A model generated the notes under the pieces. The model saw only the letters and a program-made list of their open reading frames with translations. It searched no databases and was not told the origin of the DNA. Positions 5,547-32,745 of a stretch of DNA of 35,528 nucleotides are shown here, in pieces. The stretch is from Actinomycetota bacterium (GTDB lineage: Bacteria; Actinomycetota; Acidimicrobiia; IMCC26256; VFJJ01): NCBI GenBank assembly GCA_009886115.1, contig VFJJ01000062.1:1-35528 (forward strand), in the 5' to 3' direction. Position numbers and translations under genes: made by a program. How positions within the stretch are numbered: position 1 is the stretch's first letter; each line of letters starts with the position of its first letter.

Positions 5547-6461
5547 TCAGCCGTTCAGGAAGGCCTTCAGGGATGCGGCGAGCTCGAGGGGCATGTCGCC
5601 CTGGATGGAGTGGCCGGCCCCGTCGAACTTCTCGTAGCGGGTCTCGGGGCGACGGCGGAGGAACTCGGCGACGTCGGCGTCGTCGACCACCGGCGACAGC
5701 ATGCCCCGGGCCAGCACGATGGGCATCGGCAACGCCGAGACGAGCTCCCACAGGTTGCCCCAGGAGGGGAACTCGCGCACGGCGGGCTCGTCCTCGGAGC
5801 CGGTGAACGACCGGTCGTAGTTCCACGCCCACGAACCGTCGTCGAGCTGGTGGGCGTTGTGGAGGATGCCGCGCTTGAGCGACTCGACGGTGCGCGTCGG
5901 GTTGTGCTCGACGGTCCGGGCCAGGAGGTCGTCGTACGAGGCGAACGTCTGCGGGCCGCGGATGAAGTCGGCGACCGCCTTGCCCTTGGTGGCGTCGACG
6001 CCCGGCGTCACGTCGACCACGTACAGCTTGCGCACCAGATCGGGACGACCCGCCCCGAGCGCGATCGACGTGAGACCACCGAGCGACATCCCCACCAGCA
6101 TCTCGGCCTCGGGAGCGAGCACCTCGATGGCCCGCGTCACCTTGGTGGCGTTGCCGTGCGGCCAATACCGATGGTCGGGCCACCACGAGGAATGGCCGTG
6201 TCCCGGCAGGTCGATGCACACGACCGGCTCGCCCAGCGCCATCACCACGGTGTCCCACGTGTGGGCGTTCTGGGCGCCGCCGTGCAGGAACACGACGCGC
6301 GGCGGTCCCGTCCCCCAGACCAGCGCCGACAACGACAACTCCGGCTCGATCTCGACGGCCATCCGTCTGACCGTCGGCGGCGCGTCGTAGGGAAGGCCGT
6401 ACTCGTGGGCGTTCTCGTGAAAGAGCCCGAACTCGTCGTAGTCGATCCGCTCACTCGCCAT
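5547..6461 (-). CDS. Alpha/beta-fold hydrolase
   Basis: A 304-residue cytosolic serine hydrolase of the alpha/beta superfamily; the substrate cannot be read from sequence. The oxyanion-hole region is FLHGGAQN (about 58-65), the nucleophile elbow is GMSLG (Ser126) and the catalytic histidine is in GAGHS (His284). At the usual position of the acid after strand 6 the sequence reads RGMLSPVVDD, with Ser where Asp is common; the acid may be Asp260 or Asp261, or lie after strand 6 as in some subfamilies. ATG 6461 starts MASERIDYDEFG; longer frames upstream are Arg-rich and unlike protein. It is divergent from the metallo-hydrolase gene 112 bases away, so the two may share a control region. Confidence 0.85.
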   Translation of the reverse strand: MASERIDYDEFGLFHENAHEYGLPYDAPPTVRRMAVEIEPELSLSALVWGTGPPRVVFLHGGAQNAHTWDTVVMALGEPVVCIDLPGHGHSSWWPDHRYWPHGNATKVTRAIEVLAPEAEMLVGMSLGGLTSIALGAGRPDLVRKLYVVDVTPGVDATKGKAVADFIRGPQTFASYDDLLARTVEHNPTRTVESLKRGILHNAHQLDDGSWAWNYDRSFTGSEDEPAVREFPSWGNLWELVSALPMPIVLARGMLSPVVDDADVAEFLRRRPETRYEKFDGAGHSIQGDMPLELAASLKAFLNG

Positions 6462-6559
6462 GGCCCGCAAGGTATCGCGCGTCGCACGAGAACGCCTGGA
6501 GGGCGACTGGACGCGCTCACCACCACGCCAACGCGGCCGAAGGTCGTCTCCTCGGCGCC

Positions 6560-6574
6560 TACCATCGACACTCG
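6560..6574 (+). promoter_or_regulatory. Possible -10 box for a leaderless transcript
   Basis: TACCAT at 6560-6565 fits the actinobacterial -10 pattern TANNNT and ends 8 bases before GTG 6574, which has no Shine-Dalgarno sequence. That spacing would put transcription start at or next to the start codon. No good -35 box is seen. Confidence 0.3.
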
Positions 6575-7302
6575 TGAGCCTCGTGAACGACGACCGTGTG
6601 TACTTCCGCCAACTCCTCGCCGGGCGCGACATCGCCGCCGACAACCGGATGGCCCGCCAGATGGTCAACTTCGTGTACCTGATCGGCGATCGCGACACGG
6701 GCGAGTGCGTCGTGGTCGATCCGGCGTGGGGCCCGGCCGACATCGTCAACGTGGCCGCAGCCGACGGCATGCGCATCACCGGTGCCCTGGCCAGCCACTA
6801 CCACATGGACCACATCGGCGGATCCTTGATGGGCCAGGCGGTCGACGGGGTCAGGGAGCTCCTCGAGATCGTGGGCCTCAAGGTTCACTGCCATCGTGAC
6901 GAGTTGGAGTTCGTGCGCAAGACCACGGGCATCTCCGAATCCGACGTCGTGGCCCACGACAGCGGCGACACCGTGATGGTCGGGGCCATTCCCATCGAGC
7001 TGATCCACACGCCCGGGCACACCCCCGGGAGCCAGTGCTTCTTCGTCGCCGACTGCCTCGTCTCGGGCGACACCCTCTTCCTCGATGGCTGCGGACGCAC
7101 CGACTTCCCCGGGTCCGATCCCGAGGCCATGTACGACAGCCTCCACAACCGGTTGGCTCGCATCCCCGACGAGAGCATGCTCTTCCCCGGGCACTGGTAC
7201 GCCCCCGAGCCGGCCGCGCTCATGGGCGACACCCGCCGCTCCAACTACGTCCTCGCCCCCAGGAGCAAGGAGACCTGGCTCGCCATGTTCGGCTCCGGCT
7301 GA
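6574..7302 (+). CDS. Metallo-beta-lactamase-fold hydrolase (glyoxalase II-like)
   Basis: A 242-residue cytosolic metal-dependent hydrolase. The zinc-binding signature is HYHMDH (His75, His77, Asp79, His80), followed by HTPGHTPGS (third metal-site histidine), SGDTLF with the bridging Asp, and FPGHW near the C-terminus carrying the last histidine. This is the glyoxalase II/YcbL/ETHE1-like pattern, so a thioester such as an acyl-glutathione or other acyl-thiol is a reasonable substrate class, not a demonstrated one. GTG 6574 is chosen because upstream codons are Arg-rich and overlap the divergent hydrolase gene; GTG 6583 and 6598 are alternatives. It lies 122 bases upstream of the NRPS gene on the same strand and could be co-transcribed with it. 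Confidence 0.85.
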   Translation: MSLVNDDRVYFRQLLAGRDIAADNRMARQMVNFVYLIGDRDTGECVVVDPAWGPADIVNVAAADGMRITGALASHYHMDHIGGSLMGQAVDGVRELLEIVGLKVHCHRDELEFVRKTTGISESDVVAHDSGDTVMVGAIPIELIHTPGHTPGSQCFFVADCLVSGDTLFLDGCGRTDFPGSDPEAMYDSLHNRLARIPDESMLFPGHWYAPEPAALMGDTRRSNYVLAPRSKETWLAMFGSG

Positions 7303-7424: not shown

Positions 7425-10400
7425 ATGCGCGCGACCCTGATCGGAACCGAGTCCATCCTCGCGACGTGTGGTGAGCAGTTGCTCGAGCGCGGCCACGAGA
7501 TCGTTCGTGTCATCACCGACGACCCGGCCATCGCCGGCTGGGCCGCTGATCTCGGCTGCCCGGTTTCCGAGCTGGGTCCGGGGACCGCCGAGCAGATCAG
7601 GGCCGACGCCACCGACTGGTTGTTCAGCATCGGCAACCTCGAGATCCTGTCCGACGAGATCCTGGCCGCGCCGCGGATCGTCGCCGTCAACTTCCACGAC
7701 GCGCCACTGCCCCGATACGTGGGTGTCAACACGCCGGTCTGGGGGCTCCTCAACGACGAGACCGAGTGGGGCGTCAGCTTCCACGTCATGACCTCGGGCA
7801 TCGACGAGGGCCACGTGCTGGCCGAGACCCGCTTCGTCATCGCCGACGACGAGACGGCCTTCACGCTCAACGCCAGGTGCTATGAATCCGCGATCGGCGC
7901 CTTCGGACCGCTGATCGAGCGTCTGGCCCGCGGCGACATCGCCGGTTCGCCACAACCGCACACCGACGATCGCCTGGTGTACCGCCGGGCCGATCGTCCC
8001 GCGGCCGGCGCGGTGCTCGACTGGCGGCGCGACGCGTCGTCGATCGTCCGGCTCGTGCGGGCACTGCACTACGGCCATCGGGGCAACCCCGTCGGCCTCG
8101 CCAAGCTCCTCCTCCCGAACTCCGCCGGGCCCGGCAGCCCCGGTCGCCCCGGCAGCCCCGGCCGGGAGACGCCCGTCGTGGTGGTCAGGGCCCGGGTGCT
8201 CGACGAGCGTTCGAGCCTCGACCCCGGCACCGTGGTCGATGTCGGCGACGGTCGACTCGTCGTGGCGACGGGCACGACCGACGTCGAGATCGGCGAGCTC
8301 ACCTGCCTGCGTGGCGCACCCCTCGATCTGACCCGGACCGCCGAGGAGCACGGTCTCCGGCCCGGCACGAGGCTCCCGGTGCTCGACGACGAGCGAGCCG
8401 GCCAGTTGAGCACCCACCACGCCAGCATGGCCAAGGCCGAGCGCCACCACGTGCGCCGGCTCGCGGCGTTCGAGGCCGTCGATCTGCCCTACGCCCAACG
8501 CGGCGGCGGCGACGGCAGCCAGCCACTCGTCGACGGTGGATCAGTCGAGCTGCTCCCCGGCTTCGACGCCGACAGCGCGACCGCGCTCATCGCCCTGGTT
8601 CTGGCACGACTGTCGGGTCGGTCGTCCATCGACCTGGCCTACACCGGACCCGAGATCGACCGGGTCGTGGCGGCGGTGGCGCCGCTCGCCGAGCCCGTCG
8701 TCGCGGTTCGCGTCGACCTCGACCTCGATCGGCCGTGGTCCGAGAACACCGCGACGGTCACCCAAGCCCTCGCCGAGGCCCGACGCCGGGGCCCCTACGG
8801 CCGCGAGCTGGTCGCTCGTCACCCCGAGCTCGCCGCTGCCCCATCGCCCACCTCGATCGTGGTGCGCCACGGAGCGCCGACCGAGACTCCTGCGGCTGAC
8901 GGCGGCTCCCCGGTCGACGAGCTCTCCGGCGTCGAGCTCCTGTTCGACGTCGCAGCCGACGCTCACACGGTCACCGTGCACCACGACCCCTCGGCCTATC
9001 CCCGCGAGGCCGTGGCGCGGATCCGGGCCCATCTCGCCGAGCTGGCCCATCGGGCGGCCAGCGCCCCGGCCACAGCAGCCGGTGACCTCCCGCTGCTGAA
9101 CGACGCCGAGCTGCACCGCATCCTCGTCGAGTGGAACGACACCGCGGTGCACCACGAGCCGGTGTGCATCCACGAGCGGATCGCAACACAGGCCGCCCGC
9201 ACGCCCGACGCCACAGCCGTCGTCTGCGGGGCCATGCGCTACACCTACCGCGAGCTCGAGATGCGCGCCAACCACCTCGCCCATCGACTCCGCGACCTCG
9301 GGGTCACAGCCGGCTCGCTCGTCGGCCTCCATCTCGATCGGACGGCCGACCTGGTCGTGAGCGTGCTGGCCGTTCACAAGGCGGGCGGAGCGTATGTCCC
9401 GCTCGACCCCACCTATCCCGATGACCGGATCGCCTACATGGTGGCCCACTCCGGCTTGCGCGTGTTGTGCGTGCACGAGCGTCTGCTCGCTCACCTGCCG
9501 CCCCACGAGGCCACCGTGGTGGTCGTCGACCGAACCGAGCCGCTCGACGCCAACGACCCCGCAGCGGCGACCAGCACGAGCTCGCAGGCGCCCGACGTGA
9601 CCGTCGGCCCCGACGATCTCGCCTACGTGATCTACACCTCGGGCTCGACCGGAAAGCCCAAGGGGGTCATGGTCGAGCACCACAATCTGAGCAACTTCGT
9701 GCTCGCCATGGACCCCGTGGTGCCCCACGGTCCGACGGGTGACGGTCAGCCCGGCGTATGGCTTGCCGTCACCAGCTTGTCGTTCGACATCTCGATCCTG
9801 GAGTTGCTGTACACGTTGGCCCGCGGTTTCACGGTGGTCGTGCACCCGGACACGCCGGCCAAGGCCGCGCTCTCGCCGGCCGCCACCGTCGCCGCGACCG
9901 TGCCCGTCCACACCCGCAACGCCGATGCCCTCCACACCTCGCCGCGCCCGCTGCGCAGGCAACGTCTCGACTTCAGCCTCTTCTACTTCGCGGCCGACGA
10001 GTCGGAGCCCTCGGCACGCTCGAACCGCTACCGCCTGCTCATCGAGGGCGCCCGTTACGCCGACGCCAACGGGTTCACCGCGGTGTGGACCCCCGAGCGC
10101 CACTTCCATGCGTTCGGCGGCCTCTACCCGAACCCGGCAGTCACCGGTGCCGCGCTGGCGATGGTCACCGAGAACGTCGAGATCAGGGCTGGGAGCTGTG
10201 TGCTGCCCCTGCACTCGCCGATCCGGGTGGCCGAGGAGTGGTCGCTCGTCGACAACCTCTCGAACGGCCGCACGGGGCTCGCCATCGCCTCGGGCTGGCA
10301 CCCCAACGACTTCGTCTTCCAGCCGCAGAACTTCAGCGACGCCAAGGGCGTCATGGTCCGCAGCATCGAGACGTTGCGCAGGCTCTGGGCCGGCGAGAGC

Positions 10401-12440
10401 GTCACGTTCGATGGCCCCGACGGCCGTCCCGTCGAGGTGCACACGCTCCCCCGTCCGGTCAGGCCCGAGGTACCGCTGTGGATCACGACCGCGGGGAGCC
10501 CCGAGAGCTTCCGCCTCGCTGGCCGGATCGGATGCCACCTCCTCACCCACCTGCTGGGCCAGGACCTCGCCGAGCTCACGGCCAAGATCGCCATGTACCG
10601 CCAGGCGCGCCGAGAGGCCGGCCATCCGGGCGAGGGCCACGTGACCCTCATGCTGCACACGCTCGTGGGTGACGACGACGCGACCGTCAAGGAGGCCATC
10701 CACCGTCCGCTGGTCGAGTACCTCCGCTCCTCGACCAGCCTCGTGGCCGGGTTCGCCTGGGCCTTCCCCACGTTCAAGAACCGCCCCGGCGACGCCCGCG
10801 ACGACGATCTCTCGCACCTCGAGCCCGACGAGATCGAAGCGCTCCTCGAGTTCGCCTTCCAGCGATACTCCGAGGGCAGCGGGCTCTTCGGTACCCCCGA
10901 GTCGTGCCAGCCGCTGCTCGAGTCGCTCGTCGAGATGGGCGTCGACGAGATCGGCTGCCTCGTCGACTTCGGTGTCGACGAGGACGTCGTCCTCGCGAGC
11001 CTTCCCCGGCTCACCGAGCTCAAGGAGTGGGCGGCGCAGCGGTTCGGACCGGCACCCGAGGTCGCTGCCGCCGAGCCCGTCGTGCTCGGCGCGACGTCCG
11101 CGACGTCCACGACGTCCACGGCCGGCGCGACGTCCACGGCCGCCGGGGACGCCGCGACCCCGATCCCGATCCCCGACGACGAGACGATCGGCGAGGCCAT
11201 CGTCAACCACCGGGTCACCCACTTCCAGTGCACCCCGTCGCAGGCCCGCATGATCCTCTCCGACCCGGCCAACCACGACGCGCTGGCCCACCTGCACGTC
11301 TGGCTGATCGGCGGCGAGGCCTTCCCACCGGCGCTGGCCGCCGAGCTGGCCCAGGTGTGCCCGAGGACGCGCATCGTCAACGTGTACGGCCCCACCGAGA
11401 CCACGATCTGGTCGTCGTCGCACACCATCGCCGGTGCTCCGAGCACCGTGTTGATCGGCCGGCCCATCGCCAACACGAGTCTCTACGTCCTCGACGGGCG
11501 ACGACGACCGGTGCCGGTGGGCGTTCCCGGCGAGCTCTGGATCGGCGGCGAGGGCGTCACCGGCGGCTATCTGGGTCGCTCCGATCTCACCACCGAGCGT
11601 TTCGTACCCGACCCGTTCGTCGGCCCCGACGCCAACCCGCACCACGCCCGCATGTACTGCACGGGTGACGTCGCCCGCTGGTGGCCCGACGGCACCGTCG
11701 AATGCCTGGGCCGTACCGATCATCAGGTGAAGGTGCGCGGGTACCGCATCGAGCTCGGCGAGATCGAAGCGGTCCTGGCTGCCGACGACACCGTCCGCGA
11801 AGCCGTCGTCATCGCCCGCGAAGACATGCCGGGCGACGTGCGCCTCGTGGCGTACGTCGTCGTCGATCCCGATGCCGCCAAGAACGAGGTGACCACCTCG
11901 GCCGGTTCCACCACCGTCGTCACGCACCTGCGCGAGCGGTGCCGGGCCCAGCTGCCCGACTACATGGTCCCGGCGCACGTGGTCGTGCTGGCCCGCTTCC
12001 CGCAGACGCCCAACGGCAAGATCGACCGTCTGGCTCTACCCGCGCCGACGAGCGCTGCTGCCCGACCGGCCGGGGCGCCGCCCGACCGGGCCCGAACGGC
12101 GCTCGACGCGGGCTCCAGCCTCGAATCGCAGATCTCCACGCTCTGGTCCGAGACACTGGGGCTCGACCACGTCGACGTCACCGACAACTTCTTCGACCTG
12201 GGCGGGCATTCGATGCTGGCGGTCAGGGTCCACCGCCGATTGCGCGACGAGCTCGGCTTCCCCCTGTCGCTCACCGACTTGTTCCGGTTCCCCACTGTCA
12301 GGCAGTTGGCGGGGTTCCTGGGCGCTGCCGATGACGGCGGGGACGCCGACGCCAAGCCCGCCGCGGTGAACGCCGCCCAGGCCCGGGGGGAGGCTCGCCG
12401 CCTGGCCCGGCAACGGATCAAGGTCGGCGGCGACCGCTGA
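7425..12440 (+). CDS. NRPS initiation module: formyltransferase, half condensation, adenylation interrupted by luciferase-like monooxygenase, carrier
   Basis: A 1,671-residue first enzyme of the assembly line. (1) Methionyl-tRNA formyltransferase-like domain, about 1-300, with catalytic Asn89, His91 and Asp127 at family spacing. (2) About 335-550, resembling only the C-terminal lobe of a condensation domain; no HHxxxDG. (3) Adenylation domain from about 566: YTSGSTGKPKG near 734, core 4 SFDIS (Asp788). (4) Luciferase-like FMN monooxygenase of the MupA/Atu3671 type, about 845-1210, with WTPERHFHAFGGLYPNP and ASGWHPNDF. (5) Adenylation resumes: NVYGPTETT, YCTGDVAR, NGKIDR (Lys1532). (6) Carrier DLGGHS (Ser1596). 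Code residues 788, 789, 792, 1268, 1294, 1296, 1320, 1328, 1329, 1532 read DILQLGVIWK, a glycine code. A basic tail may dock to the PKS. Formyl-THF-dependent formylation of carrier-bound glycine is inferred by analogy with LgrA. The gene overlaps the PKS start by one base. Confidence 0.92.
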   Translation: MRATLIGTESILATCGEQLLERGHEIVRVITDDPAIAGWAADLGCPVSELGPGTAEQIRADATDWLFSIGNLEILSDEILAAPRIVAVNFHDAPLPRYVGVNTPVWGLLNDETEWGVSFHVMTSGIDEGHVLAETRFVIADDETAFTLNARCYESAIGAFGPLIERLARGDIAGSPQPHTDDRLVYRRADRPAAGAVLDWRRDASSIVRLVRALHYGHRGNPVGLAKLLLPNSAGPGSPGRPGSPGRETPVVVVRARVLDERSSLDPGTVVDVGDGRLVVATGTTDVEIGELTCLRGAPLDLTRTAEEHGLRPGTRLPVLDDERAGQLSTHHASMAKAERHHVRRLAAFEAVDLPYAQRGGGDGSQPLVDGGSVELLPGFDADSATALIALVLARLSGRSSIDLAYTGPEIDRVVAAVAPLAEPVVAVRVDLDLDRPWSENTATVTQALAEARRRGPYGRELVARHPELAAAPSPTSIVVRHGAPTETPAADGGSPVDELSGVELLFDVAADAHTVTVHHDPSAYPREAVARIRAHLAELAHRAASAPATAAGDLPLLNDAELHRILVEWNDTAVHHEPVCIHERIATQAARTPDATAVVCGAMRYTYRELEMRANHLAHRLRDLGVTAGSLVGLHLDRTADLVVSVLAVHKAGGAYVPLDPTYPDDRIAYMVAHSGLRVLCVHERLLAHLPPHEATVVVVDRTEPLDANDPAAATSTSSQAPDVTVGPDDLAYVIYTSGSTGKPKGVMVEHHNLSNFVLAMDPVVPHGPTGDGQPGVWLAVTSLSFDISILELLYTLARGFTVVVHPDTPAKAALSPAATVAATVPVHTRNADALHTSPRPLRRQRLDFSLFYFAADESEPSARSNRYRLLIEGARYADANGFTAVWTPERHFHAFGGLYPNPAVTGAALAMVTENVEIRAGSCVLPLHSPIRVAEEWSLVDNLSNGRTGLAIASGWHPNDFVFQPQNFSDAKGVMVRSIETLRRLWAGESVTFDGPDGRPVEVHTLPRPVRPEVPLWITTAGSPESFRLAGRIGCHLLTHLLGQDLAELTAKIAMYRQARREAGHPGEGHVTLMLHTLVGDDDATVKEAIHRPLVEYLRSSTSLVAGFAWAFPTFKNRPGDARDDDLSHLEPDEIEALLEFAFQRYSEGSGLFGTPESCQPLLESLVEMGVDEIGCLVDFGVDEDVVLASLPRLTELKEWAAQRFGPAPEVAAAEPVVLGATSATSTTSTAGATSTAAGDAATPIPIPDDETIGEAIVNHRVTHFQCTPSQARMILSDPANHDALAHLHVWLIGGEAFPPALAAELAQVCPRTRIVNVYGPTETTIWSSSHTIAGAPSTVLIGRPIANTSLYVLDGRRRPVPVGVPGELWIGGEGVTGGYLGRSDLTTERFVPDPFVGPDANPHHARMYCTGDVARWWPDGTVECLGRTDHQVKVRGYRIELGEIEAVLAADDTVREAVVIAREDMPGDVRLVAYVVVDPDAAKNEVTTSAGSTTVVTHLRERCRAQLPDYMVPAHVVVLARFPQTPNGKIDRLALPAPTSAAARPAGAPPDRARTALDAGSSLESQISTLWSETLGLDHVDVTDNFFDLGGHSMLAVRVHRRLRDELGFPLSLTDLFRFPTVRQLAGFLGAADDGGDADAKPAAVNAAQARGEARRLARQRIKVGGDR
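11091..11144 (+). repeat. 9-bp repeats in the linker after the monooxygenase insert
   Basis: Units of gcgacgtcc and variants (11091, 11100, 11109, 11127) encode an Ala-Thr-Ser linker joining the flavin monooxygenase to the second part of the adenylation domain. The low-complexity DNA marks the junction of the inserted domain. Confidence 0.6.
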
Positions 12441-15400
12441 TGGGCTCGAACGGCGCGGCCGACGACTACAGCGGGTCCGAGATCGCCATCGTCGGCATGG
12501 CGGGACGGTTTCCCGGCGCGCCCGATGTCGACACGCTCTGGGATCTCGCGGCGTCGGGTCGGGTCGGCATGCGTCGATTCAGCGATCGGGAGTTGCTCGA
12601 CGCCGGCGTACCCCTGGCGACACTGCGCGATCCCGACTATGTCAAGGTCAACGGGACCATCGACACGCTCGAGTGGTTCGACGCCGGCTTCTTCGGGATC
12701 GGGCCCCGCGACGCGGCGATCATGGATCCCCAACACCGCCACTTCCTCGAAGCGGCGTGGGAGGTGCTCGAGCACGCCGGCCATCCGCCGTCGAGATTCG
12801 ACGGGCCCATCGGGGTGTTCGCGGGCTGCGGCATGAACGGGTACTTCACCTGGAACCTGCTCACCAACCCCGCGCTCGTCGAGTCGGTCGGCCTGTTCCT
12901 GTTGCGCCACACCAGCAACGACCGCGACTTCCTCGCCACCCAGGTCGCGTATCAGCTCAACCTGACCGGACCGGCGATCTCGGTGCAGACGGCGTGCAGC
13001 ACGTCGCTCGTGGCGGTCCACCTGGCGACGCAGAGCCTGCTCAGCCGGGAGTGCGACATGGCCCTGGCCGGTGGGGTCACCTACGAGATCCCGCATCGCC
13101 AGGGATACCTCTACCACGACGGCGAGATTCTCTCACCCGACGGTGTCTGCCGGGCCTTCGACCATCGCTCGGCCGGCACCGTGCTCACGAGCGGTCTCGG
13201 CGTCGTGGCGTTGCGCCGCTACGACGACGCTGTTGCCGATGGCGACGTGATCCACGCCGTCATCCGAGGAACCGCCGTGAACAACGACGGGTCCCGCAAG
13301 GTCGGGTTCCTCGCGCCGAGTGTCGACGGTCATGCCGCCGTCGTCGTCGAGGCCCTCGCGGTGGCCGGCGTCGACCCCGACACCATCACCTACCTCGAGG
13401 CCCACGGCACGGGCACCAGCGTCGGAGATCCGATCGAGGTGGCCGCGCTCACGCAGGCCTTCCGTACCGCGACGAGCCGTAGCGCCTTCTGCCACTTGGG
13501 ATCGACGAAGCCGAGCATCGGGCACCTCGACACCGCAGCGGGCGTCGCCAGTCTCATCAAGACCACGAAAGCCTTGCAGCACAAAGTGCTCCCGCCGCTC
13601 GCCAACTTCGAGGCACCCAACCCCATCATCGACTTCGATGCGACGCCCTTCGTCGTGAGCAACGAAGCCCGGCCTTGGAACGTCACGCCGGGTACGCCGA
13701 GACGGGCCGGTGTCAGCTCACTCGGTGTGGGTGGAACCAACGTCCACGCCGTGCTCGAGGAAGCCCCGCTCCGGCCGGCCACGACGCCGGCGGGGCGCGA
13801 CTGGCAACTCCTCGTCGTCTCGGGTCGGACCGAGACCGCGGCCCGGGCCTACGGGGTTGCGCTCGCGCGGCATCTCGCTCGCAGCATCGCCGGCAGGGTC
13901 GACGCGTCCGAGACCTCGGCTGAGCCGACCCCGGCTGACGATGCCGCCCTCGGTGAGCTGGCCGACGTCGCCTACACGATGCAGGTCGGGCGTGAGGCCT
14001 TCGCGTGGCGCCGTGCCGTCGCCGTCAGGTCCGCGGCCGATGCCCTCGCGGTGCTCAGCGACGATCCCGGCGCGTCCGCGGCACACGTCGGCATGCGGCG
14101 TACGGTCGTCGGCACCGCAGCCGCCGGTTCGAGCTCCCCACCCGTGGTGTTCATGTTCCCCGGGGGAGGAGCCCAGTACCCGGGGATGGGTCGTGACCTC
14201 TACGATGCGGAGCCGGTCTTCCGGCGCCACGTCGACGAGTGCCTGACCCTGCTCGAACCCTTGCTGGCCATGGCTCCCGTCGGTCGCGAGCTGCCGTTCG
14301 CCGACCTGCGGGCCTTGATGTACCCGGCCCCCGGGACCGAGGACGAGGCGGCAGTCCACCTCGAGCGGGCCACGGCTTCGTTGCCTGCGGTCTGGGTCAC
14401 GTCGTACGCCATGGCCCAGCTGTGGATGTCGTGGGGCGTCGAGCCCGCGGCCATGACCGGTCACTCCCTCGGCGAGTACGTCGCAGCGTGCATCGCCGGA
14501 GTGCTCAGCCTGCCCGACGCGCTGTCGATCGTGATGTTGCGGGCCCGACTCTTCGAGCAGGTCTCCCACGGCGGAGGGATGCTCTCGGTCCCCCTGGCCG
14601 TCGACGAGGTCCGGCCCCTCCTGCCCGATGTCTTGTCGATCGCCGCGGTGAACTCGCCGACGCAGACCGTCGTCTCGGGTCGCGCCCACGACCTCGCCGC
14701 CTTCGAGCAGGTCCTGCTCGAGAAAGAGGTCGAGGCCCGTCGGGTCAACCTGGCCATCGCCCCGCACTCGGCCATGCTCGACGAGGTGCTCCCGGCCTTT
14801 CGCGACGGGCTGCGCCGGATCACCTTCCACCGCCCCGTCCGCCGGTTCATCTCCAACCTCACCGGCACGTGGATCACCGACGAGGATGCCGTCGATCCCG
14901 AATACTGGGTGAGGCACCTGCGGCGAACCGTGCGGTTCTCCGATGGTCTCGCCGAGTTGTGCACCGATGCCTCGCTCGTGTTCCTCGAGGTCGGTCCGGG
15001 GCAGGCGTTGGGCTCGTTCGTGCGCCAGCAGCCCAGCCGACCGTCGGCCGTGCTCGCCTCCCTGCGCCACGTCGACGACGACACGGCCGATCTCCAGTAC
15101 ACCCTCACGACCTTGGGGCGCTTGTGGACGGCCGGGGTGGAGATCGACTGGAACGCTCATCACCACGGCCCTCGCCGGCGGGTCGCGCTGCCGACCTACC
15201 CCTGGGAGCGGCAGCGGTACTGGATCGATCCCGGCGTCGGGCGATCCGGCGTCGCCAACCCCGGTGACCCGCTGACCCGGATCCCGACGATCGACGGATG
15301 GTGGAGCCAGCTCGAGTGGCGTGCGGCACCCGCGCCTCGAATCGGTGCCACCGAGCCCACCTCGTGGCTGGTCCTCGCCGATGGCGATCCGCTGATCGAG

Positions 15401-18400
15401 CGCACCATGGTCGCGCTCCGGGCGGCGGGGCACCGAGTGATCGAGGTGCGCCCGGGTGAGCGCTTCGAGCGCAGCGAGAACGGCCACTCCCTCGCCGGTC
15501 TCGCGACCTCCTTCGTGTTGCCGCCAGCCGATCGGGCCGGATGGTCGCAGCTGCTTGCGGCGCTCACCGACGAGGGCGGGTTGCCCCGCCACGTGCTCCA
15601 CTCGTGGCTGATGCACGATCGGCGCGACGCCGACTCGGCGCAGGCCCGCGGCTTGCACACGCTGATCGCCATGGCCCAGGCCTTCGTCGACGACGACGTG
15701 ACCGCACCGGTCGAGCTGATCGTCCTGACCGCAGGCATGCAGCAGGTGGCTGCTGAACCGCTTCGCCATCCCGAGCACGCCACGGTGCTGGGCGCCTGCC
15801 GGGTCATCCCCCGCGAGCAACCCAACGTCGCGTGCCGCAGCATCGACGTCGAGGCGACGACCACCGTCGAGGCGCTCATCACCGAGCTGACCCAAGGCGG
15901 CACTGGTCCTGCAGGCGTCACCTCGTCCGGCGCGACCTCACAAGCGGTGGCGTACCGGGGTGCGAGCCGCTTCGCGCAGGAGATCGCCGTCGTCGCCGGT
16001 CCTCGGCTGGTCACCGACCCGGCGGCCGTGGCGGGGGCCGCGGGCTCGCTCCACACAGCCACGGGGGCGGTCCGACCCGGCGGTACCTATCTCATCACCG
16101 GCGGATACGGCGGTCTCGGTCTCGTGGTGGCCGAGCACCTCGCCCGCACCGCCAACGCCAACGTCGTGCTCGTCGGCCGTCATCCGCGTCCGACACCGGG
16201 GCTCGAAGCGGCCCGGGCCGAGGTGCTGAAGGTCGCAGCCGACGTCACCGACGTCGACGCGCTGCGGCGTGTTGTGGCCGAAACCCATCGACGCTTCGGA
16301 CCCATCCACGGTGTCTTCCACGCCGCCGGCGTGCTTGACGACGGCCTCCTGCCCTCCAAGACCATCGCCGGCGTCGACGCCGTGCTCGCCCCCAAGGTCG
16401 CTGGGACGCTGGCGCTCGACGATGCGCTGCGCGACGAGCCGCTCGAGTTCATGGTCCTCTTCTCGTCGACCTCGGCGCTGCTCGGTCTCCCCGGCCAGGT
16501 CGACTACGCCGCAGCGAACGCGTTCGTCGACGCCTACGCCGCACATCGGCGGGGCTCCGACCGCCCAGGCTCGACGGTCGCGATCGCCTGGGGGGCTTGG
16601 CGTGACAGGGGAATGACCGCCCGCGGCGATGCCGACCCGGCTGACGCGCTCGGCCTCGGCGATCGTCTCGAGCCTCCCGAGCCGCTCAGCCACGCCGTGC
16701 TCGACCGATGGGCCGCTGTCTCAGCCGAGCGCGTGATCTCCGAGGGCCACCTCGACGCGGCCAGTGACTGGATCGTCGCCGAGCATCGCCTCAAGGCCGG
16801 TCGGTGCGTCCTTCCCGGCATGGCGGCCATCGACCTCATCGCAACCGCAGCCCGCGAGACCCTTCCGCTGCACGGTTCGATCGAGATCCGCGACCTCTCG
16901 TTCGTACGCCCCCTCGAGGTCCCCGACGACGAGCCCACCGGGATCAGGGTCGATCTCCGGGCCGATGAGCCGGGGGCGTGGTCGGCCGCGATCGAGAGCC
17001 GGCCCGAACAGCCCGGACGGCCCACCGTGTGGCGCCGTCACGCCGGGGCGACCGTGATGGTGGCGTCCGGCCCCGGGTCCGGCGACCCGTCCGGCGACCC
17101 GACCGAAGGGGAGTCGCAGGCCAACGGAGATCGGCCCCGCCTCGATCTCGACGCGATCGGCAACCGGCTCCATCAAGCAGCTCGCAGCTACGACGCCCAG
17201 TACCCGCACGACCGCCAGAGTCGCCACCTCGACTTCGGACCCCGCTGGGACAACCTGGTCTCGGCCCGGGCCAGCGAGTCGGAGGTGCTGGCCGAGCTCC
17301 AGCTCCCGTCAGCGTTCGAGGGCGACATCGGCCCCTGGTCCCTCCACCCGGCGCTGCTCGACCGGGCGGTCGGCATCGGGTTGGGCCTCATCGACGGTTT
17401 CCGCGATCGCGACGACCTCTACGTTCCCTTCGAGGTGAGGCGGGCCGTTGTCCACGGCCCGGTGCCCAGCCGCGTGTGGTGCCTCGTGAGGCTCACTCGG
17501 CCCACGACGGCCACCGACGCCGTGGCGACCTTCGACGTGACCCTCGCCGAGCCCGACGGTCGTGTCTGTGTGGTCATGGAGCGGCTCTCCATGCGGCGGC
17601 TCGAGAACGTGCAGGCGATGGCTGTCACCGGTCGCAGGGCGGCCGTCGCCGACATGGGCCCGGCCGGGTTCCCCGACCACGCTGGTCATGGACAGGAGCG
17701 AGCGGCGCTGGGAGGCGGTTCCGACGGCGCCGGTCCCCGGGCCATGGGCCACGTGATGGCCGACGGGATCACGGCCGAGGAAGGCCTGGCGTGCCTCGAC
17801 CGGCTGCTCGGCGCCATGGCCGGTCCGGGTGGTCCGGGTGGTCCGGGTGGTGCGGGTGGTCCGGGTGATCCGAATGGCAGCAGCATCGCCTCGCACCTGA
17901 TCTGCTCACCGTTCGATCTCGTGGCGCTCGAGCGCGCCGCGCTGCCCACCGCCCCGGCGGGCGGCGGCGACGGAGCGGGAAGGGTCGAGCGGCCCGAGCT
18001 GGGAGCCACCTTCACCGGACCGAGAGACGACGTCGAGCGCGAGCTCGTCGACGTCTGGCAGGAGATCCTCGGCATTGCCGGGGTCGGCATCCACGACGAC
18101 TTCTTCGACCTGGGCGGGCATTCCCTCATCGCTGTTCGGCTGTTCTCCAAGATTCGCAAGGCCTGGGCGGTCGACCTCGGCCTCTCGACCCTCTTCAACG
18201 CGCCCACGGTCGCCGAGCTGGCAACGCTCGTTCGCGAGGAGCGCGATCTCCCCGAGCCCCCGCCGTCACCCACGATCCCGACTGCGGCCGTGACCGCTCC
18301 CGCTCCCGTCGAGGGCACGGCGATCGTCCCGGCTGCAGGCGACGCCGGGACCGGAGGAGGGGGCTCGTCGCCCTCGGGCGCACCGGCTTCTTCTTCTGCT

Positions 18401-19360
18401 GCTGCTGCTGCACCCACGACCGCACCCGATTCCGATGCGGCGAGCGGGCAGGCGGCTCGGGGCCGGCCCCGGCGATCGTCGTTCAGCTGCCTCGTACCCA
18501 TCCAGCGACGCGGCGGGTTGCGGCCGGTGTACATCGTGCACGGCCGCACCGGTCACGTGATGAACTTCCAGCCGCTGGCACTGCGCATGGCGCCCGACCG
18601 CCCGGTCTTCGGCATCCAGGCCCATGGTCTCGACGGCCGGAGCGAACCCGACCGCACCATCGAGGCCATGGCCCGCCGCTACGTGAGCGCCGTTCGCGAG
18701 GCCCAGCCCGTCGGGCCGTACATCCTCGGCGGCTTCTCGGGTGGGGGCGTGGTCGCGTTCGAGATGGCTCATCAGCTCACCGCTGACGGCGAGACGGTCG
18801 CTCCGCTCGTCCTGCTCGACACGATCCGCCCCGGGCTCCAGCAGGAGGTGCGATGGGACTACGTCCGCTACCGCGCCAAGGAGATCAGCCGCGACCCCGT
18901 CCAAGCCCGGCAGTGGGTCAAGGCGACTGCCCGACTCGTGCGCGACCGTCTCAGCCCCGGGGAGACCCCCGTACGACGCCGCTCGTCGTTCGGCCCACCC
19001 GACGAGCGGATCGGCGACGGCGCTGCGAGCACGAGCGTCGACGCCGACAACGTGCTCGAGCTGACCGACATCTACCTCCGGGCCCAGGACGACTACACGA
19101 TGCGCCGCTGGGACGGGCGCGCCGTGCTGTTCCGGGCCAGTCGATCGCTCGCCGAGGAGATGGGCTCGTTCCAGGTACCTGCCGACCTCCTGTGGTCGCC
19201 GTTCGTCGAGCACCTCGACATCTTCCAGATCCCGGGCGGTCACACCGACATGATGTTGCCGCCCAACGTCGACGTGCTCGCCGAGCGCCTCCGTCTGGTG
19301 CTGAGTGCCGAGTCCGAGACCGAGACCGAGACCGAGGCTGGGTCCCCGGAAACCCGGTGA
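12440..19360 (+). CDS. Type I PKS module: KS-AT-KR-DH-carrier-thioesterase
   Basis: A 2,306-residue single-module polyketide synthase that would extend the starter by one unit and release it. KS (10-430): Cys186 in QTACSTS, His322 in EAHGTG, His362 in IGHLDTAAG, all present. AT (about 570-890): Ser676 in GHSLGEY; the APHSAM segment does not clearly call malonyl versus methylmalonyl. A structural KR half (about 950-1190) precedes the catalytic KR (1215-1400): TGGYGGLG, LDD motif (Asp1300-Asp1301) of B-type reductases, Tyr1356 and Asn1360. DH (1435-1730): His1449, with one extra residue before the Gly of HxxxGxxxxP, and Asp1641 in HPALLD. A Gly/Pro-rich linker leads to the carrier domain (Ser1895 in GGHS), then an Ala/Ser-rich linker and a type I thioesterase (Ser2100 in GFSGG, His2268 in GGHTD). 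No enoylreductase. Start ATG overlaps the NRPS stop as TGATG; no clear ribosome binding site, so coupled reinitiation is likely. Confidence 0.93.
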   Translation: MGSNGAADDYSGSEIAIVGMAGRFPGAPDVDTLWDLAASGRVGMRRFSDRELLDAGVPLATLRDPDYVKVNGTIDTLEWFDAGFFGIGPRDAAIMDPQHRHFLEAAWEVLEHAGHPPSRFDGPIGVFAGCGMNGYFTWNLLTNPALVESVGLFLLRHTSNDRDFLATQVAYQLNLTGPAISVQTACSTSLVAVHLATQSLLSRECDMALAGGVTYEIPHRQGYLYHDGEILSPDGVCRAFDHRSAGTVLTSGLGVVALRRYDDAVADGDVIHAVIRGTAVNNDGSRKVGFLAPSVDGHAAVVVEALAVAGVDPDTITYLEAHGTGTSVGDPIEVAALTQAFRTATSRSAFCHLGSTKPSIGHLDTAAGVASLIKTTKALQHKVLPPLANFEAPNPIIDFDATPFVVSNEARPWNVTPGTPRRAGVSSLGVGGTNVHAVLEEAPLRPATTPAGRDWQLLVVSGRTETAARAYGVALARHLARSIAGRVDASETSAEPTPADDAALGELADVAYTMQVGREAFAWRRAVAVRSAADALAVLSDDPGASAAHVGMRRTVVGTAAAGSSSPPVVFMFPGGGAQYPGMGRDLYDAEPVFRRHVDECLTLLEPLLAMAPVGRELPFADLRALMYPAPGTEDEAAVHLERATASLPAVWVTSYAMAQLWMSWGVEPAAMTGHSLGEYVAACIAGVLSLPDALSIVMLRARLFEQVSHGGGMLSVPLAVDEVRPLLPDVLSIAAVNSPTQTVVSGRAHDLAAFEQVLLEKEVEARRVNLAIAPHSAMLDEVLPAFRDGLRRITFHRPVRRFISNLTGTWITDEDAVDPEYWVRHLRRTVRFSDGLAELCTDASLVFLEVGPGQALGSFVRQQPSRPSAVLASLRHVDDDTADLQYTLTTLGRLWTAGVEIDWNAHHHGPRRRVALPTYPWERQRYWIDPGVGRSGVANPGDPLTRIPTIDGWWSQLEWRAAPAPRIGATEPTSWLVLADGDPLIERTMVALRAAGHRVIEVRPGERFERSENGHSLAGLATSFVLPPADRAGWSQLLAALTDEGGLPRHVLHSWLMHDRRDADSAQARGLHTLIAMAQAFVDDDVTAPVELIVLTAGMQQVAAEPLRHPEHATVLGACRVIPREQPNVACRSIDVEATTTVEALITELTQGGTGPAGVTSSGATSQAVAYRGASRFAQEIAVVAGPRLVTDPAAVAGAAGSLHTATGAVRPGGTYLITGGYGGLGLVVAEHLARTANANVVLVGRHPRPTPGLEAARAEVLKVAADVTDVDALRRVVAETHRRFGPIHGVFHAAGVLDDGLLPSKTIAGVDAVLAPKVAGTLALDDALRDEPLEFMVLFSSTSALLGLPGQVDYAAANAFVDAYAAHRRGSDRPGSTVAIAWGAWRDRGMTARGDADPADALGLGDRLEPPEPLSHAVLDRWAAVSAERVISEGHLDAASDWIVAEHRLKAGRCVLPGMAAIDLIATAARETLPLHGSIEIRDLSFVRPLEVPDDEPTGIRVDLRADEPGAWSAAIESRPEQPGRPTVWRRHAGATVMVASGPGSGDPSGDPTEGESQANGDRPRLDLDAIGNRLHQAARSYDAQYPHDRQSRHLDFGPRWDNLVSARASESEVLAELQLPSAFEGDIGPWSLHPALLDRAVGIGLGLIDGFRDRDDLYVPFEVRRAVVHGPVPSRVWCLVRLTRPTTATDAVATFDVTLAEPDGRVCVVMERLSMRRLENVQAMAVTGRRAAVADMGPAGFPDHAGHGQERAALGGGSDGAGPRAMGHVMADGITAEEGLACLDRLLGAMAGPGGPGGPGGAGGPGDPNGSSIASHLICSPFDLVALERAALPTAPAGGGDGAGRVERPELGATFTGPRDDVERELVDVWQEILGIAGVGIHDDFFDLGGHSLIAVRLFSKIRKAWAVDLGLSTLFNAPTVAELATLVREERDLPEPPPSPTIPTAAVTAPAPVEGTAIVPAAGDAGTGGGGSSPSGAPASSSAAAAAPTTAPDSDAASGQAARGRPRRSSFSCLVPIQRRGGLRPVYIVHGRTGHVMNFQPLALRMAPDRPVFGIQAHGLDGRSEPDRTIEAMARRYVSAVREAQPVGPYILGGFSGGGVVAFEMAHQLTADGETVAPLVLLDTIRPGLQQEVRWDYVRYRAKEISRDPVQARQWVKATARLVRDRLSPGETPVRRRSSFGPPDERIGDGAASTSVDADNVLELTDIYLRAQDDYTMRRWDGRAVLFRASRSLAEEMGSFQVPADLLWSPFVEHLDIFQIPGGHTDMMLPPNVDVLAERLRLVLSAESETETETEAGSPETR
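17822..17866 (+). repeat. Five 9-bp tandem repeats in the PKS gene
   Basis: Five units of ggtccgggt (the fourth is ggtgcgggt) encode Gly-Pro-Gly or Gly-Ala-Gly triplets in the linker before the carrier domain. Such a tract can change length by slippage without a frameshift. Confidence 0.85.
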
Positions 19361-20019
19361 GAGCGGCGTTCGAGAACCTGCTGGGTACCAGGGTGATCGT
19401 TGAGAGCGACCACCCTGGAGACGAGAGCGCCCCGCTCTCGGACGCCGAGACCGCGCTCGTGGCCCGGGCCGTGGATTCGCGCCGCCGCGAGTTCCGCGTC
19501 GGGAGGGCCTGTGCCCACAGGGCATTGGCCCGGCTCGGGATCGCCGGTCACACGATCGGCGCGCACCCCGAGCGTGATCCCGTGTGGCCCGACGGCATCG
19601 TGGGCTCGATCACCCACACGGTCGACTGCGGCGGGCGCCTGCGCTGTGTGGCTGCGGTCGCCCCGACCAGGGTCGCGGCCGGGATCGGGATCGACGCCGA
19701 GCCCTCCACCCCGCTCGACGACGACCTCATGGCGCTGGTCTGCCGTCCCGGCGAGGTGGCCTCGGGCGACCGCGATGCGGCCAAGGTGGTGTTCTGTGTC
19801 AAGGAGGCGCTGTACAAGGCGATCTTCCCGCTGACCCGCCGGTTCCTCGAGTTCTCCGATGTGTCGACCACGGTGTCGTTGGCCGACGGCACGTTCACGG
19901 CCCGGGCCGTCACCGGCGCGGGTGGCCCGAGGTTCCCCGAGGGCCGTAGCGTCCACGGCGGTGTCGTGGTGCTCGACGGGCTCGTGCTGGCGTCGCTGCG
20001 TCTGCCGCCCGGCTTCTGA
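19357..20019 (+). CDS. 4'-phosphopantetheinyl transferase (Sfp/EntD type)
   Basis: A 220-residue enzyme that would transfer phosphopantetheine from coenzyme A to the serines of the NRPS and PKS carrier domains upstream. Motifs seen: VWPDGIVGSITH (about 70-80), the magnesium-binding GIGIDAE (Asp113, Glu115) and FCVKEALYKAIF (Lys149, Glu150), in the order and spacing of the EntD/PptT group. The GTG start overlaps the PKS stop as GTGA, so it is translationally coupled and almost certainly serves this cluster, although it could activate other carriers too. The neighbouring T-rich repeat at the PKS end (Ser-Glu-Thr-Glu tail) belongs to the upstream gene. Confidence 0.93.
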   Translation: MRAAFENLLGTRVIVESDHPGDESAPLSDAETALVARAVDSRRREFRVGRACAHRALARLGIAGHTIGAHPERDPVWPDGIVGSITHTVDCGGRLRCVAAVAPTRVAAGIGIDAEPSTPLDDDLMALVCRPGEVASGDRDAAKVVFCVKEALYKAIFPLTRRFLEFSDVSTTVSLADGTFTARAVTGAGGPRFPEGRSVHGGVVVLDGLVLASLRLPPGF

Positions 20020-20056: not shown

Positions 20057-20887
20057 ATGACCCGCGCCCCGTATCCGCCGCCCGTCCACATGCTGCACCA
20101 GCTCGGGATCGCCTTCGACCCGCCAGCCGACGGTCGGGTGAGCCTCCGGCTCCCGATCACGCCCGATCTCTGCTCGGCGACGGGCGCCCTGCGCCCCGGC
20201 GTCGCCGCCACGCTCATCGACGTGGCCGGCGGTCGCCTGTCGGTTCCCGCGGTCGCTCCCGACTGGGTCGCCACCGCCGACCTCTCGGTGAGCATGACCG
20301 GACGGGTCGATCGGGGATCGTTGGTGGCCCATGGTCACATCGTGCGCGCGGGACGGACCGCCGTGGTGGTCGAGGTCGACCTCGAGGACGATCTCGGTGC
20401 TCGGGTGGGCTCGGGGTCGATGTCGTTCACGGTGCTGCCCCGGCGTGACACCAACCTGCGCCTCGAGGAGGTCGAGCCGGGGCTCGTGGCGTGGGGCGCA
20501 TCGCGCCAGCCCGACATCGCGTATCTCGACTTCGCCGGCGTCGAGGTCGTCGATTCGGCGGCGGGAATCGTTCAGATCGCCTGCGATCCCAAGGTGCGCA
20601 ACAGCTTCCAGGCTCTCCAGGGCGGAATGGTTTGCACCCTCGCCGACATCGCAGCCGAGACTGCGGGTTCCATGGCGCTGCAACGGCCGGCGGCCACCGT
20701 CTCGCTCGAGACCTGGTTCCTCGCGCCGGGCAAGGTGGGGCCGGTGCGAGCGACCGGCCGGCTGCTCGTGGCCGACAGCGAACGCGCTCGGGCCGTCGTG
20801 AGGGTCGAGCTGCGCGACCTCGGCACCGACGACCGCTTGGTCTCGGTGACCCTGGCGACGGTCTCGGCGGGGACGGTCTCACGATGA
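20057..20887 (+). CDS. Double-hotdog thioesterase-like protein 1
   Basis: A 276-residue protein made of two hotdog folds in tandem, of the PaaI/4HBT thioesterase superfamily. The first half (about 10-130) has LRPGVAATLIDVAGG and the second (150-276) LQGGMVCTLADIAAETAG, the central-helix signature of PaaI-type hotdogs; only the second keeps the double Gly. Acyl-thioester hydrolysis is a family-level assignment; it might remove mis-primed chains or act on the product thioester. ATG 20057 follows GGGA at four bases' spacing, 37 bases after the transferase gene. The stop overlaps the next gene as ATGA. Confidence 0.8.
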   Translation: MTRAPYPPPVHMLHQLGIAFDPPADGRVSLRLPITPDLCSATGALRPGVAATLIDVAGGRLSVPAVAPDWVATADLSVSMTGRVDRGSLVAHGHIVRAGRTAVVVEVDLEDDLGARVGSGSMSFTVLPRRDTNLRLEEVEPGLVAWGASRQPDIAYLDFAGVEVVDSAAGIVQIACDPKVRNSFQALQGGMVCTLADIAAETAGSMALQRPAATVSLETWFLAPGKVGPVRATGRLLVADSERARAVVRVELRDLGTDDRLVSVTLATVSAGTVSR

Positions 20888-21849
20888 CCGCAGGCGAGAC
20901 GCAGGAACCGGCAACGGCAACCCCGGCAACGGCAACCCCGGCCGCGGCCGCCACCGCCACCGCCACCGCAGAGACCAACGCGACCAGGCCGCCCAGCGAC
21001 GGCCGGGGCCTGTCGCTCCACCTCGGGACCGAGCTGCGCATCGCGGCTCCGGGCGAGCCGGGAACGGGGCTGGTCGTGGTGCGGCCCGATCTGTGCGACA
21101 CGTCCGGCGCGCTCCGCGCCGGCGTCCTGTTCACGCTGGCCGACAACGTCGGTGGTCACTTCGGGGCGGTGAGCGCGTACCCCGACTGGGTGGTCACCGC
21201 CGATCTCAGCCTGCGTGTCCTGCGGCCGGCCACCACGGGAACGGTCCATGCCACGGGAGCCTTGCTGCGCAAGGGCCGCACGACCGTCGTCGTCGAGGTC
21301 GAGCTGTCCGACGAGCTCGGTCGCGAGGTCGCTCGGGCCATCGTGACCTCGACGGTCCTCACCCCGTCGTTCGACGTGACCGGCATGCTCGCCGGCCGTC
21401 CCCGGCAGCCGTCCGACCCGCCTCCGATCTCCGACGGCCCGCCGCTGTTCGACTGGCTCGGCATCCTCTCCGCGGCCGACTGGAGTTGGGCCGAGATGGT
21501 GATCACCGAGCCGCTGCGCAACCCCTGGGGCATCCTCCACGGCGGGGCCGCGAGCCTGCTCGTCGAGGCGGCTGCGCTCGGTCGAGCCCAGCGGGCACTG
21601 GGTTCCGAGCACCCGAGCCGTGTGGGCTCGATGGTGCTGCGCTACCTCAATCCCAACCGGGTCGGACCGTTGCGCGCCGGCGCCGAGATCGTCGGCCTGC
21701 GCCACGGTATCGACGGGCGTCCCGATGCGGCCCAGGTGCGCATCGACGTACGCGACACCGGTGCCGGCAACCGTCAGACCATCGCCGCCACGGTCACCGT
21801 CGAGTCGTCACGACCGATCGAGGAGCGGGAGCAAGGCACGCATGAGTGA
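20884..21849 (+). CDS. Double-hotdog thioesterase-like protein 2
   Basis: A 321-residue paralogue of the preceding protein, also with two hotdog halves: TSGALRAGVLFTLADNVGG in the first, GILHGGAASLLVEAAALG in the second. Here the HGG version of the motif is in the second half. An N-terminal extension of about 35 residues is Ala/Thr/Pro-rich and encoded by a 15-bp tandem repeat (20908-20937) followed by GCC/ACC triplets; it is probably disordered. The ATGA overlap implies coupled translation and perhaps a hetero-oligomer with its neighbour. It is the last gene of the operon; its final 42 bases overlap the convergent phosphatase gene. Substrate unknown. Confidence 0.8.
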   Translation: MTAGETQEPATATPATATPAAAATATATAETNATRPPSDGRGLSLHLGTELRIAAPGEPGTGLVVVRPDLCDTSGALRAGVLFTLADNVGGHFGAVSAYPDWVVTADLSLRVLRPATTGTVHATGALLRKGRTTVVVEVELSDELGREVARAIVTSTVLTPSFDVTGMLAGRPRQPSDPPPISDGPPLFDWLGILSAADWSWAEMVITEPLRNPWGILHGGAASLLVEAAALGRAQRALGSEHPSRVGSMVLRYLNPNRVGPLRAGAEIVGLRHGIDGRPDAAQVRIDVRDTGAGNRQTIAATVTVESSRPIEEREQGTHE

Positions 21850-25053: not shown

Positions 25054-25084
25054 ACAACGAGCGGCATAGCGCAATCGAGTCCAT

Positions 25085-25121
25085 CCGGGGTGGGTCGGTC
25101 GAGAGACCGACCCACCTCCGG
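25085..25121 (+). terminator. Hairpin between binding protein 1 and its permease gene
   Basis: A 16-bp stem (25085-25100 with 25105-25121, one bulged T at 25117) closed by a GAGA tetraloop, 31 bases after the stop. Probably a partial terminator or 3'-end stabiliser giving more binding protein than permease. Confidence 0.6.
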
Positions 25122-25168
25122 GCTCGATAGTGGCGACCTTGTCCGGACCGGACTCCCGAGAGACATCA

Positions 25169-27447: not shown

Positions 27448-27451
<4 letters not shown>
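25169..27451 (+). CDS. Fused LivH-LivM branched-chain amino acid ABC permease
   Basis: A 760-residue polytopic inner-membrane protein joining both permease subunits. The N-terminal LivH half (1-300) has GSIYAIAATGLVVTYSTSGI and NFAHGAVGM. The LivM half (about 315-650) has LLTGYAGQPSLAAYSFAGIA and the coupling-helix segment KDSPAACATLGLDVTRLK (about 520). Two further membrane helices and a cytosolic tail follow (650-760), beyond the normal LivM end. LivH and LivM are usually separate, so one chain here supplies the whole pore. ATG 25169 starts MDDLLAYGVLG; a GTG at 25130 is an unlikely alternative. The stop overlaps the ATPase start as GTGA. Confidence 0.92.
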
Positions 27452-29033
<1,582 letters not shown>

Positions 29034-29037
<4 letters not shown>

Positions 29038-29381
29038 CGAGTCAAGACCGGATCGAGCAGTTCAAGGCCGAGGTCGCCGACCTCAAGCTCAAGACCTCGA
29101 CGGGAGGCAGCGAGAAGGCCGCGGGCAAGGCGGGGACCATCTTCATGTTCCTCGCCGTGATCGTGGGCTTCGGGGCCTACGTCCAGTCGACGAGCGCCGA
29201 GAACGCACTCGATCAGAACGAGCTCATCATCTTGACGCTGGCGTGTGTGGCCTTGGCCGTGGTCGGAGCGGCGCTGTACCTCGCGACCAAGATGATCAGC
29301 TTCTGGCGCTTCTGGATGCTCCGCCAGATGTACGAGCACCAGGCCCACCTCGATCAGCTCTCTGAGCGCGTCGGCCCCTGA
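29034..29381 (+). CDS. Small two-helix membrane protein of the LIV operon
   Basis: A 115-residue protein I do not recognise. A charged N-terminus (1-32), predicted coiled or helical, is followed by a membrane helix at 33-50, a short acidic loop, a second helix at 63-84, and an amphipathic, aromatic-rich C-terminus with FWRFWMLRQMYEHQ. Both ends are predicted cytosolic. It overlaps the ATPase stop as ATGA, so it is translated with the transporter and could be an accessory or stabilising subunit; this is inferred from position only. Confidence 0.75.
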
Positions 29382-29468
29382 ACGAGCACCCCTGATCGTC
29401 GAGTCCAAGCGGTACTCGTAGCGGCCCGGTCCCGGAGCTCCCGAGCTGAGGCTCACGGCCCGAGCTTC

Positions 29469-29518
29469 TTGCGCCCCAAAGAATCCTCCACCAGACTCCC
29501 CAACGTGACATTCGTCGC
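29469..29518 (+). promoter_or_regulatory. Promoter-operator module of binding protein 2
   Basis: TTGCGC (29469-29474), 17 bases, CAGACT (29492-29497), then GTGAC-ATTC-GTCGC (29505-29518), a palindrome with one mismatch. The start codon is 78 bases downstream. Confidence 0.55.
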
Positions 29519-29595
29519 AGTCGATCGGGAACGATCAGCAGCGACGAAGGCACCGGTTCGACTGCACGATCGCAGTCACGTTGAGGGGGAGTCGG

Positions 29596-31059: not shown

Positions 31060-31078
31060 CGCCCTTCCCGTGCAGCAC

Positions 31079-31118
31079 CACGCTCGTCTGGTGCGCAACC
31101 GCGCACCAGACGGGCGTG
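31079..31118 (+). terminator. Strong hairpin terminator after binding protein 2
   Basis: An 18-bp stem (31079-31096 with 31101-31118, one G-U pair) with a four-base AACC loop begins 19 bases after the stop codon. No U-tract. It ends immediately before the -35 box of the next gene. Confidence 0.75.
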
Positions 31119-32727: not shown

Positions 32728-32745
32728 GGGTTCACCGCATCCTGC

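Follow-up and report, generated by a model that had tools for sequence, protein, structure and literature searches.

A formyltransferase starter protein with a monooxygenase embedded in its predicted glycine adenylation domain, and the recurrent polyketide synthase cassette to which it belongs

The window, that is, the whole stretch of 35,528 nucleotides that was analyzed, encodes a nonribosomal peptide synthetase (NRPS) starter protein in which the adenylation (A) domain is interrupted by a complete luciferase-like FMN-dependent monooxygenase domain (LLM). This formyltransferase (FT)-type starter and its partner polyketide synthase (PKS) form a recurrent cassette that is widespread and conserved among bacteria. 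The tethered glycine is probably hydroxylated at the alpha carbon in some form. The genes and domains given below with coordinates between 6460 and 21849 of the window lie on the forward (+) strand.

Starter protein and its split adenylation domain

The starter protein (7425–12440, 1671 amino acids) was delimited using its open reading frame, its start, and domain searches. Its architecture, namely, a formyltransferase, a truncated condensation (C) domain, an A domain split by the monooxygenase, and a peptidyl carrier protein (PCP), or FT-(C-lobe)-A1-LLM-A2-PCP, is beyond reasonable doubt. The gene starts with the ATG at 7425, not with the mechanically called GTG at 7035, and ends at 12440. 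In Pfam and NCBIfam searches, the formyltransferase was matched at residues 52–304, the first AMP-binding part from residue 587, TIGR04020 at residues 850–1200, the second AMP-binding part up to approximately residue 1532, and the carrier protein at residues 1569–1632.

The monooxygenase domain (9972–11024) matched TIGR04020, a family of the MupA/Atu3671 type, with 497 bits against a cut-off of 244.45 (NCBIfam search; E = 1.9e-149; profile positions 1–341 of 341), which is far beyond chance. The same barrel scored 172 bits with Pfam Bac_luciferase and 349 bits with the sequence of PDB entry 6KET. Genome G000 (5.4 Mb) contained 102 luciferase-like PF00296 matches and only one TIGR04020 match at E ≤ 1e-60. 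AMP-binding sequence flanks the barrel on both sides within a single open frame, without stops, and both A halves are complete. The first half (9183–9845; AMP-binding/AA-adenyl-dom, motifs, and model) carries motifs A3 (YTSGSTGKPKG) and A4 (SFDIS at 9780), and the second (11175–12059; domain searches, motifs, and model) carries A5–A10. The first-pass annotation had described a full luciferase-like domain of about 365 residues at 9786–11230, between A4 and A5. The domain and its insertion point stand, but its extent does not; the barrel comprises approximately 351 residues (850–1200), and the longer span also takes in two linkers, the roughly 20 residues of A domain that follow SFDIS, and the stretch of A domain that leads up to CTPSQ. 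These flexible linkers (9855–9956 and 11058–11174) attach the barrel to the A domain approximately 20 residues past motif A4, and the insertion point was identical in the homologues aligned in detail.

An AlphaFold2 model of 971 residues, built on 61 aligned homologues, had a mean pLDDT of 84.8 and a pTM of 0.61. The A halves and the barrel were modeled confidently, while the linkers (model residues 237–270 and 638–676) were below 50, with values of approximately 31–36 over most of their length. As the pTM is modest, the placement of the barrel relative to the A domain is not fixed by the model. In Foldseek searches, the whole model aligned with uninterrupted A domains such as SyAstC (501 residues; TMt 0.74 over 972 columns). 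The barrel by itself aligned with the PuwE oxygenase domain 6KET (TMt 0.91 over 356 columns, 45% identity). In the predicted structure, a whole A fold is thus built from two sequence halves, with a separate barrel, which is what the first-pass annotation had expected of such a model. A single-sequence prediction of the barrel only gave a pLDDT of 36.7 and was discarded.

The genome is a 224-contig draft, from which an artefact of assembly or gene fusion might be suspected. However, the same architecture was present in isolate genomes (Rhizobium LC145, Novosphingobium, Hyphomicrobium, and Microvirga) and on complete plasmids, and the probability of an artefact is negligible. Moreover, the long low-complexity linkers of the window copy might point to a degenerate or purely structural insert that is non-catalytic in this organism. 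Against this, the frame is open, the insertion point is shared across the aligned homologues, and 102 of the 104 LLM columns conserved at ≥90% are kept in the window copy, so that only two deviate compared with a median of three in the other members; a non-catalytic barrel is highly improbable. Both readings were rejected on the basis of the independent copies and the conservation. For FMN binding, this column count serves as an indirect check.

The specificity code was re-read from motif positions across the insert. The residues D788, I789, and L792 lie before the barrel, and the other seven (Q1268, L1294, G1296, V1320, I1328, W1329, and K1532) lie after it. The resulting code, DILQLGVIWK, agrees with the split glycine code proposed earlier and differs at one position from the standard glycine code, DILQLGLIWK. 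All 66 other listed FT-type loci had D-I-L-Q in the first four code positions and G at position 301, so that D-I-L-Q-x-G is invariant among them. By both sequence and fold, a cross-module fragment of DhbF was among the best matches to the A domain, and the crystallized fragment contains a glycine-activating A domain (PMC11253843). Judging from its code, the window A domain almost certainly activates glycine.

Starter position and gene neighborhood

The N-terminal formyltransferase (7425–8336; Pfam Formyl_trans_N/C) keeps the triad N89, H91, and D127, and these residues were conserved in 67, 65, and 66 of the 67 family members, respectively. Its nearest solved structure was the ArnA formyltransferase 8gjh (E = 1e-20). 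Of a condensation domain, only the C-terminal lobe is left between the formyltransferase and the A domain (8427–9134; hhalign and motif check), and it aligned with columns 197–474 of true C domains at an hhalign probability of 99.8. The HHxxxDG motif was found neither in the window protein nor in any of the 66 other listed FT-type ORFs, and it was present in most complete non-FT ORFs. Since the formyltransferase is N-terminal and the condensation N-lobe with HHxxxDG is lost, the module was assigned a starter rather than a terminal position, in line with the earlier reading. The features of LgrA/CongA/OzmO-type starters were found, namely, an N-terminal formyltransferase with Asn-His-Asp, no upstream condensation, and a PCP (12129–12320; LGGHS; PP-binding, 63 bits) followed by the ketosynthase (KS) of a PKS. 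Those of MtaG-type terminal release were lacking, as HHxxxDG is absent and the starter protein has no thioesterase (TE).

The ATG of the partner gene overlaps the NRPS stop (TGATG). This gene (12440–19360) encodes a type I PKS of 2306 amino acids, in which Pfam and motif searches identified KS (12479–13612, with the active Cys and both His motifs), AT (14147–15136, GHSLG), KR (16082–16606), DH (16721–17614), ACP (18041–18232), and TE (18524–19309, GFSGG) in this order. The next gene, encoding a 4'-phosphopantetheinyl transferase (PPTase; 19357–20019; Pfam 4PPT_N/ACPS), has a GTG start that overlaps the PKS stop, and a PPTase gene adjoins the cassette again in some other lineages. Considering these two overlaps, the genes probably form one operon. 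Two hotdog-fold thioesterases (20057–20887 and 20884–21849; both TIGR00369/4HBT) follow, the second overlapping the preceding gene by ATGA. Upstream lies an MBL-fold hydrolase (6460–7302; Lactamase_B) of uncertain cluster membership, whose match to the solanimycin protein SolJ, at 81 bits, falls far short of the SolJ cut-off of 350. According to the translations, the window also encodes an SDR and, downstream of the cluster at 23578–35076, three binding proteins of the branched-chain amino-acid type with LivH/M/F/G-type transporter genes.

In the case of flavin reductases, none was recognized in the gene cluster of the window, and none was found in the annotated cassette neighborhoods, except beside the non-FT Streptomyces locus L010. 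Accordingly, the supply of FMNH2 was assumed.

Recurrence of the cassette and its polysaccharide neighbors

Relatives were collected by a barrel-alignment scan of genome contigs, and the locus set comprised the best 80 of at least 585 relatives, plasmid records, and four genomes of the class of the window. Among the loci listed, 66 others had the FT-A(MOx)A-PCP architecture, with the formyltransferase as a separate ORF in three. They were distributed over at least 11 phyla: Pseudomonadota, Planctomycetota, Myxococcota, Acidobacteriota, Chloroflexota, Gemmatimonadota, Actinomycetota, Rhodothermota, Cyanobacteriota, Omnitrophota, and Nitrospinota. A KS-AT PKS neighbored the cassette in 47 of the 53 listed FT loci with ≥4.5 kb on both flanks; it was mostly KS-AT-KR-DH-ACP-TE, and the catalytic motifs of each domain were kept across most of the 48 copies. 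As no PKS was nearby in the remaining 6 of these 53 loci, the members of the family may not all make one and the same product. Membership of the window genes in this cassette had escaped the first-pass annotation.

TIGR04020 matches were obtained in 5 of 395 genomes of the class of the window, 7 of 200 genomes of a Sphingomonas family, and 13 of 294 genomes of the phylum of a planctomycete, which places the oxygenase family in 1–4% of the sampled genomes of these three groups; by frame length, most of these matches fit the cassette architecture. No second copy was found in a search of 40 relatives. The barrel tree intermixes phyla (36 changes, where the minimum is 13), but horizontal transfer cannot be firmly claimed owing to genome bins, paralogues, and open forks in the tree.

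Several variants were observed. An actinomycete bin encodes a single FT-A-LLM-A-PCP-TE protein on a short contig without a PKS (L067:967–6636), and the PKS of Aliiroseovarius has an additional NRPS module ahead of the TE (L006:14272–23520). In two planctomycetes, a gene for a B12-binding domain overlaps the PKS end (L033:18980–19465 and L059:18901–19377). Loci L026, L039, L051, L062, and L079 have either a TE-less PKS or an NRPS with no PKS beside it, together with tandem hydrolases that resemble the exosortase-A-associated hydrolases 1 and 2; in several gammaproteobacterial and other TE-less loci, hydrolases with this resemblance, below cut-off, adjoin the PKS or NRPS. Myxococcus sp. CA023 (L060) has the cassette and flanking gene families in common with L064, whose record bears the title Comamonas sp. 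KCTC 72670, possibly through transfer or mislabelling of the record. Their flanks include a UvrA-like ABC protein, with a possible role in self-resistance.

Polysaccharide genes accompanied 27 of the 66 listed FT-type loci versus 1 of the 29 non-FT loci, a difference that is an association and not a test because the loci are related, many come from one lineage, the gene calls are crude, and the non-FT loci are often truncated. The polysaccharide gene families were identified on representatives. On annotated plasmids of Aminobacter, Shinella, Ruegeria, and Paracoccus, the cassette lies amid glycosyltransferases, flippases, and export genes. Exopolysaccharide clusters enclose the cassette at L007, L008, L012, L013, L014, L035, L049, L050, L053, L058, L091, L092, and L095, and in the sphingomonads L035, L049, and L050, a GT2 gene overlaps the PKS gene end. 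Tentatively, the small acyl product of the cassette may decorate cell-surface exopolysaccharide in many bacteria; if true, this would be an acyl decoration of exopolysaccharide made by an NRPS-PKS line. No glycosyltransferase was recognized in the window, and as the window is without polysaccharide genes, the use of the cassette here may differ.

Proposed chemistry and comparison with known systems

The two-part A domain would activate glycine and load it onto the PCP, and the N-terminal formyltransferase would cap the amine, as in the LgrA and CongA starters. The formyltransferase of such starters modifies an amino acid that is already tethered, and without formylation, linear gramicidin is not elongated (PMC4504003). 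The embedded FMN-dependent monooxygenase would then hydroxylate the alpha carbon to give N-formyl-alpha-hydroxyglycyl-S-PCP, and the two flexible linkers may hold the barrel so that the PCP arm can reach it. The PKS would add one malonyl-type unit, followed by reduction and dehydration (KR and DH, no ER), and the TE would free a four-carbon 4-formamido-4-hydroxy-but-2-enoyl product or its cyclised form. As an overall explanation, loading, formylation, and alpha-hydroxylation of tethered glycine with a single PKS extension was given an even chance. We infer the order of formylation and oxidation, the alpha carbon as the site, the retained N–C bond, the extender unit, and the product; the gene order is silent on whether oxidation comes before formylation.

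While alpha-hydroxylation itself is probable, the retention of the carbinolamide is evenly balanced. In the biosynthesis of myxothiazol and melithiazol, a flavin monooxygenase inside the glycine A domain of MtaG and MelG brings about hydroxylation followed by cleavage (PMC10204066, PMC11342130); the first-pass annotation had likewise placed a monooxygenase within a glycine-activating A domain of MtaG. With the same domain arrangement, and with a carbinolamide that is intrinsically labile, the hydroxylated formyl-glycine could collapse here with loss of formamide, and the resulting glyoxylyl-S-PCP would provide a two-carbon aldehyde starter and a 4-oxobutenoyl-type product. However, alpha-hydroxyglycine survives in solanimycin B, for which module 4 of SolF has a glycine A domain with an FMO (PMC10204066), and if the nitrogen were lost every time, there would be little point in conserving a formyltransferase whose triad is intact. 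Such a collapse is rather improbable, and an oxidation outcome different from that of MtaG is plausible. Besides cleavage, the main alternative is oxidation at the nitrogen, by which the glycyl nitrogen would be hydroxylated to yield an oxime, or else, if formylation follows, a hydroxamate starter of the N-formyl-N-hydroxyglycyl type. An OXY domain does make oximes from glycine primers in necroxime starter modules (PMC7318616), but the related domains in the literature cited act at the alpha carbon, and we regard nitrogen oxidation as unlikely. The alpha-hydroxylated formyl-glycine starter remains the preferred reading.

In the open-licence literature, no description was found of a formyl starter, an embedded monooxygenase, and a single-module PKS combined across phyla, no report of the cassette product, and no description of the cassette within exopolysaccharide clusters containing PKS/NRPS; a search for Atu3671 gave nothing. 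Since the cassette recurs in at least 11 phyla and no product was found, it is a good target for a common unseen bacterial metabolite. The two-protein line is small enough for reconstitution with two enzymes, a PPTase, and a flavin reductase, and the cassette also suits testing whether assembly lines modify exopolysaccharides.

Both parts of the arrangement have precedents. A monooxygenase embedded in a glycine A domain is already known from MtaG, MelG, SolF, and crz-like clusters, where the likeness to MtaG and SolF rests on published descriptions, as their sequences were absent from the recovered loci. MtaG and MelG are terminal modules in which cleavage leads to release as an amide (PMC10204066, PMC11342130), whereas the window protein is a formyltransferase starter that feeds a PKS and has no functional C domain. 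SolF module 4 of solanimycin is an internal elongation module. In the crz-like clusters of Serratia and Pseudomonas (38 pathways), the MOx also lies within a glycine A domain (PMC11342130), but the module is internal, belongs to a lipodipeptide pathway, and has no formyltransferase starter described. The OX domain of PuwE, from a hybrid PKS/NRPS, is the closest solved structure to the window barrel (PDB 6KET), and a 2-hydroxy acyl product was proposed for PuwE (PMC4219810). In the necroxime starter, likened here by description, a glycine primer is also oxidized at the start of the line, but to an oxime (PMC7318616). The formyl-glycine starter is likewise known, as CongA and OzmO, for conglobatin and oxazolomycin, are formyltransferase-A(Gly)-PCP starters that feed a KS (PMC4504003). 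They follow the same formyl-glycine-to-KS logic, but no embedded monooxygenase is described for them, and their partner CongE/OzmP was proposed to form the oxazole; no gene of this type was found among the annotated neighbors of the cassette. Thus, embedded glycine oxidation, known from internal and terminal modules, is here joined to formyl-capping in a starter.
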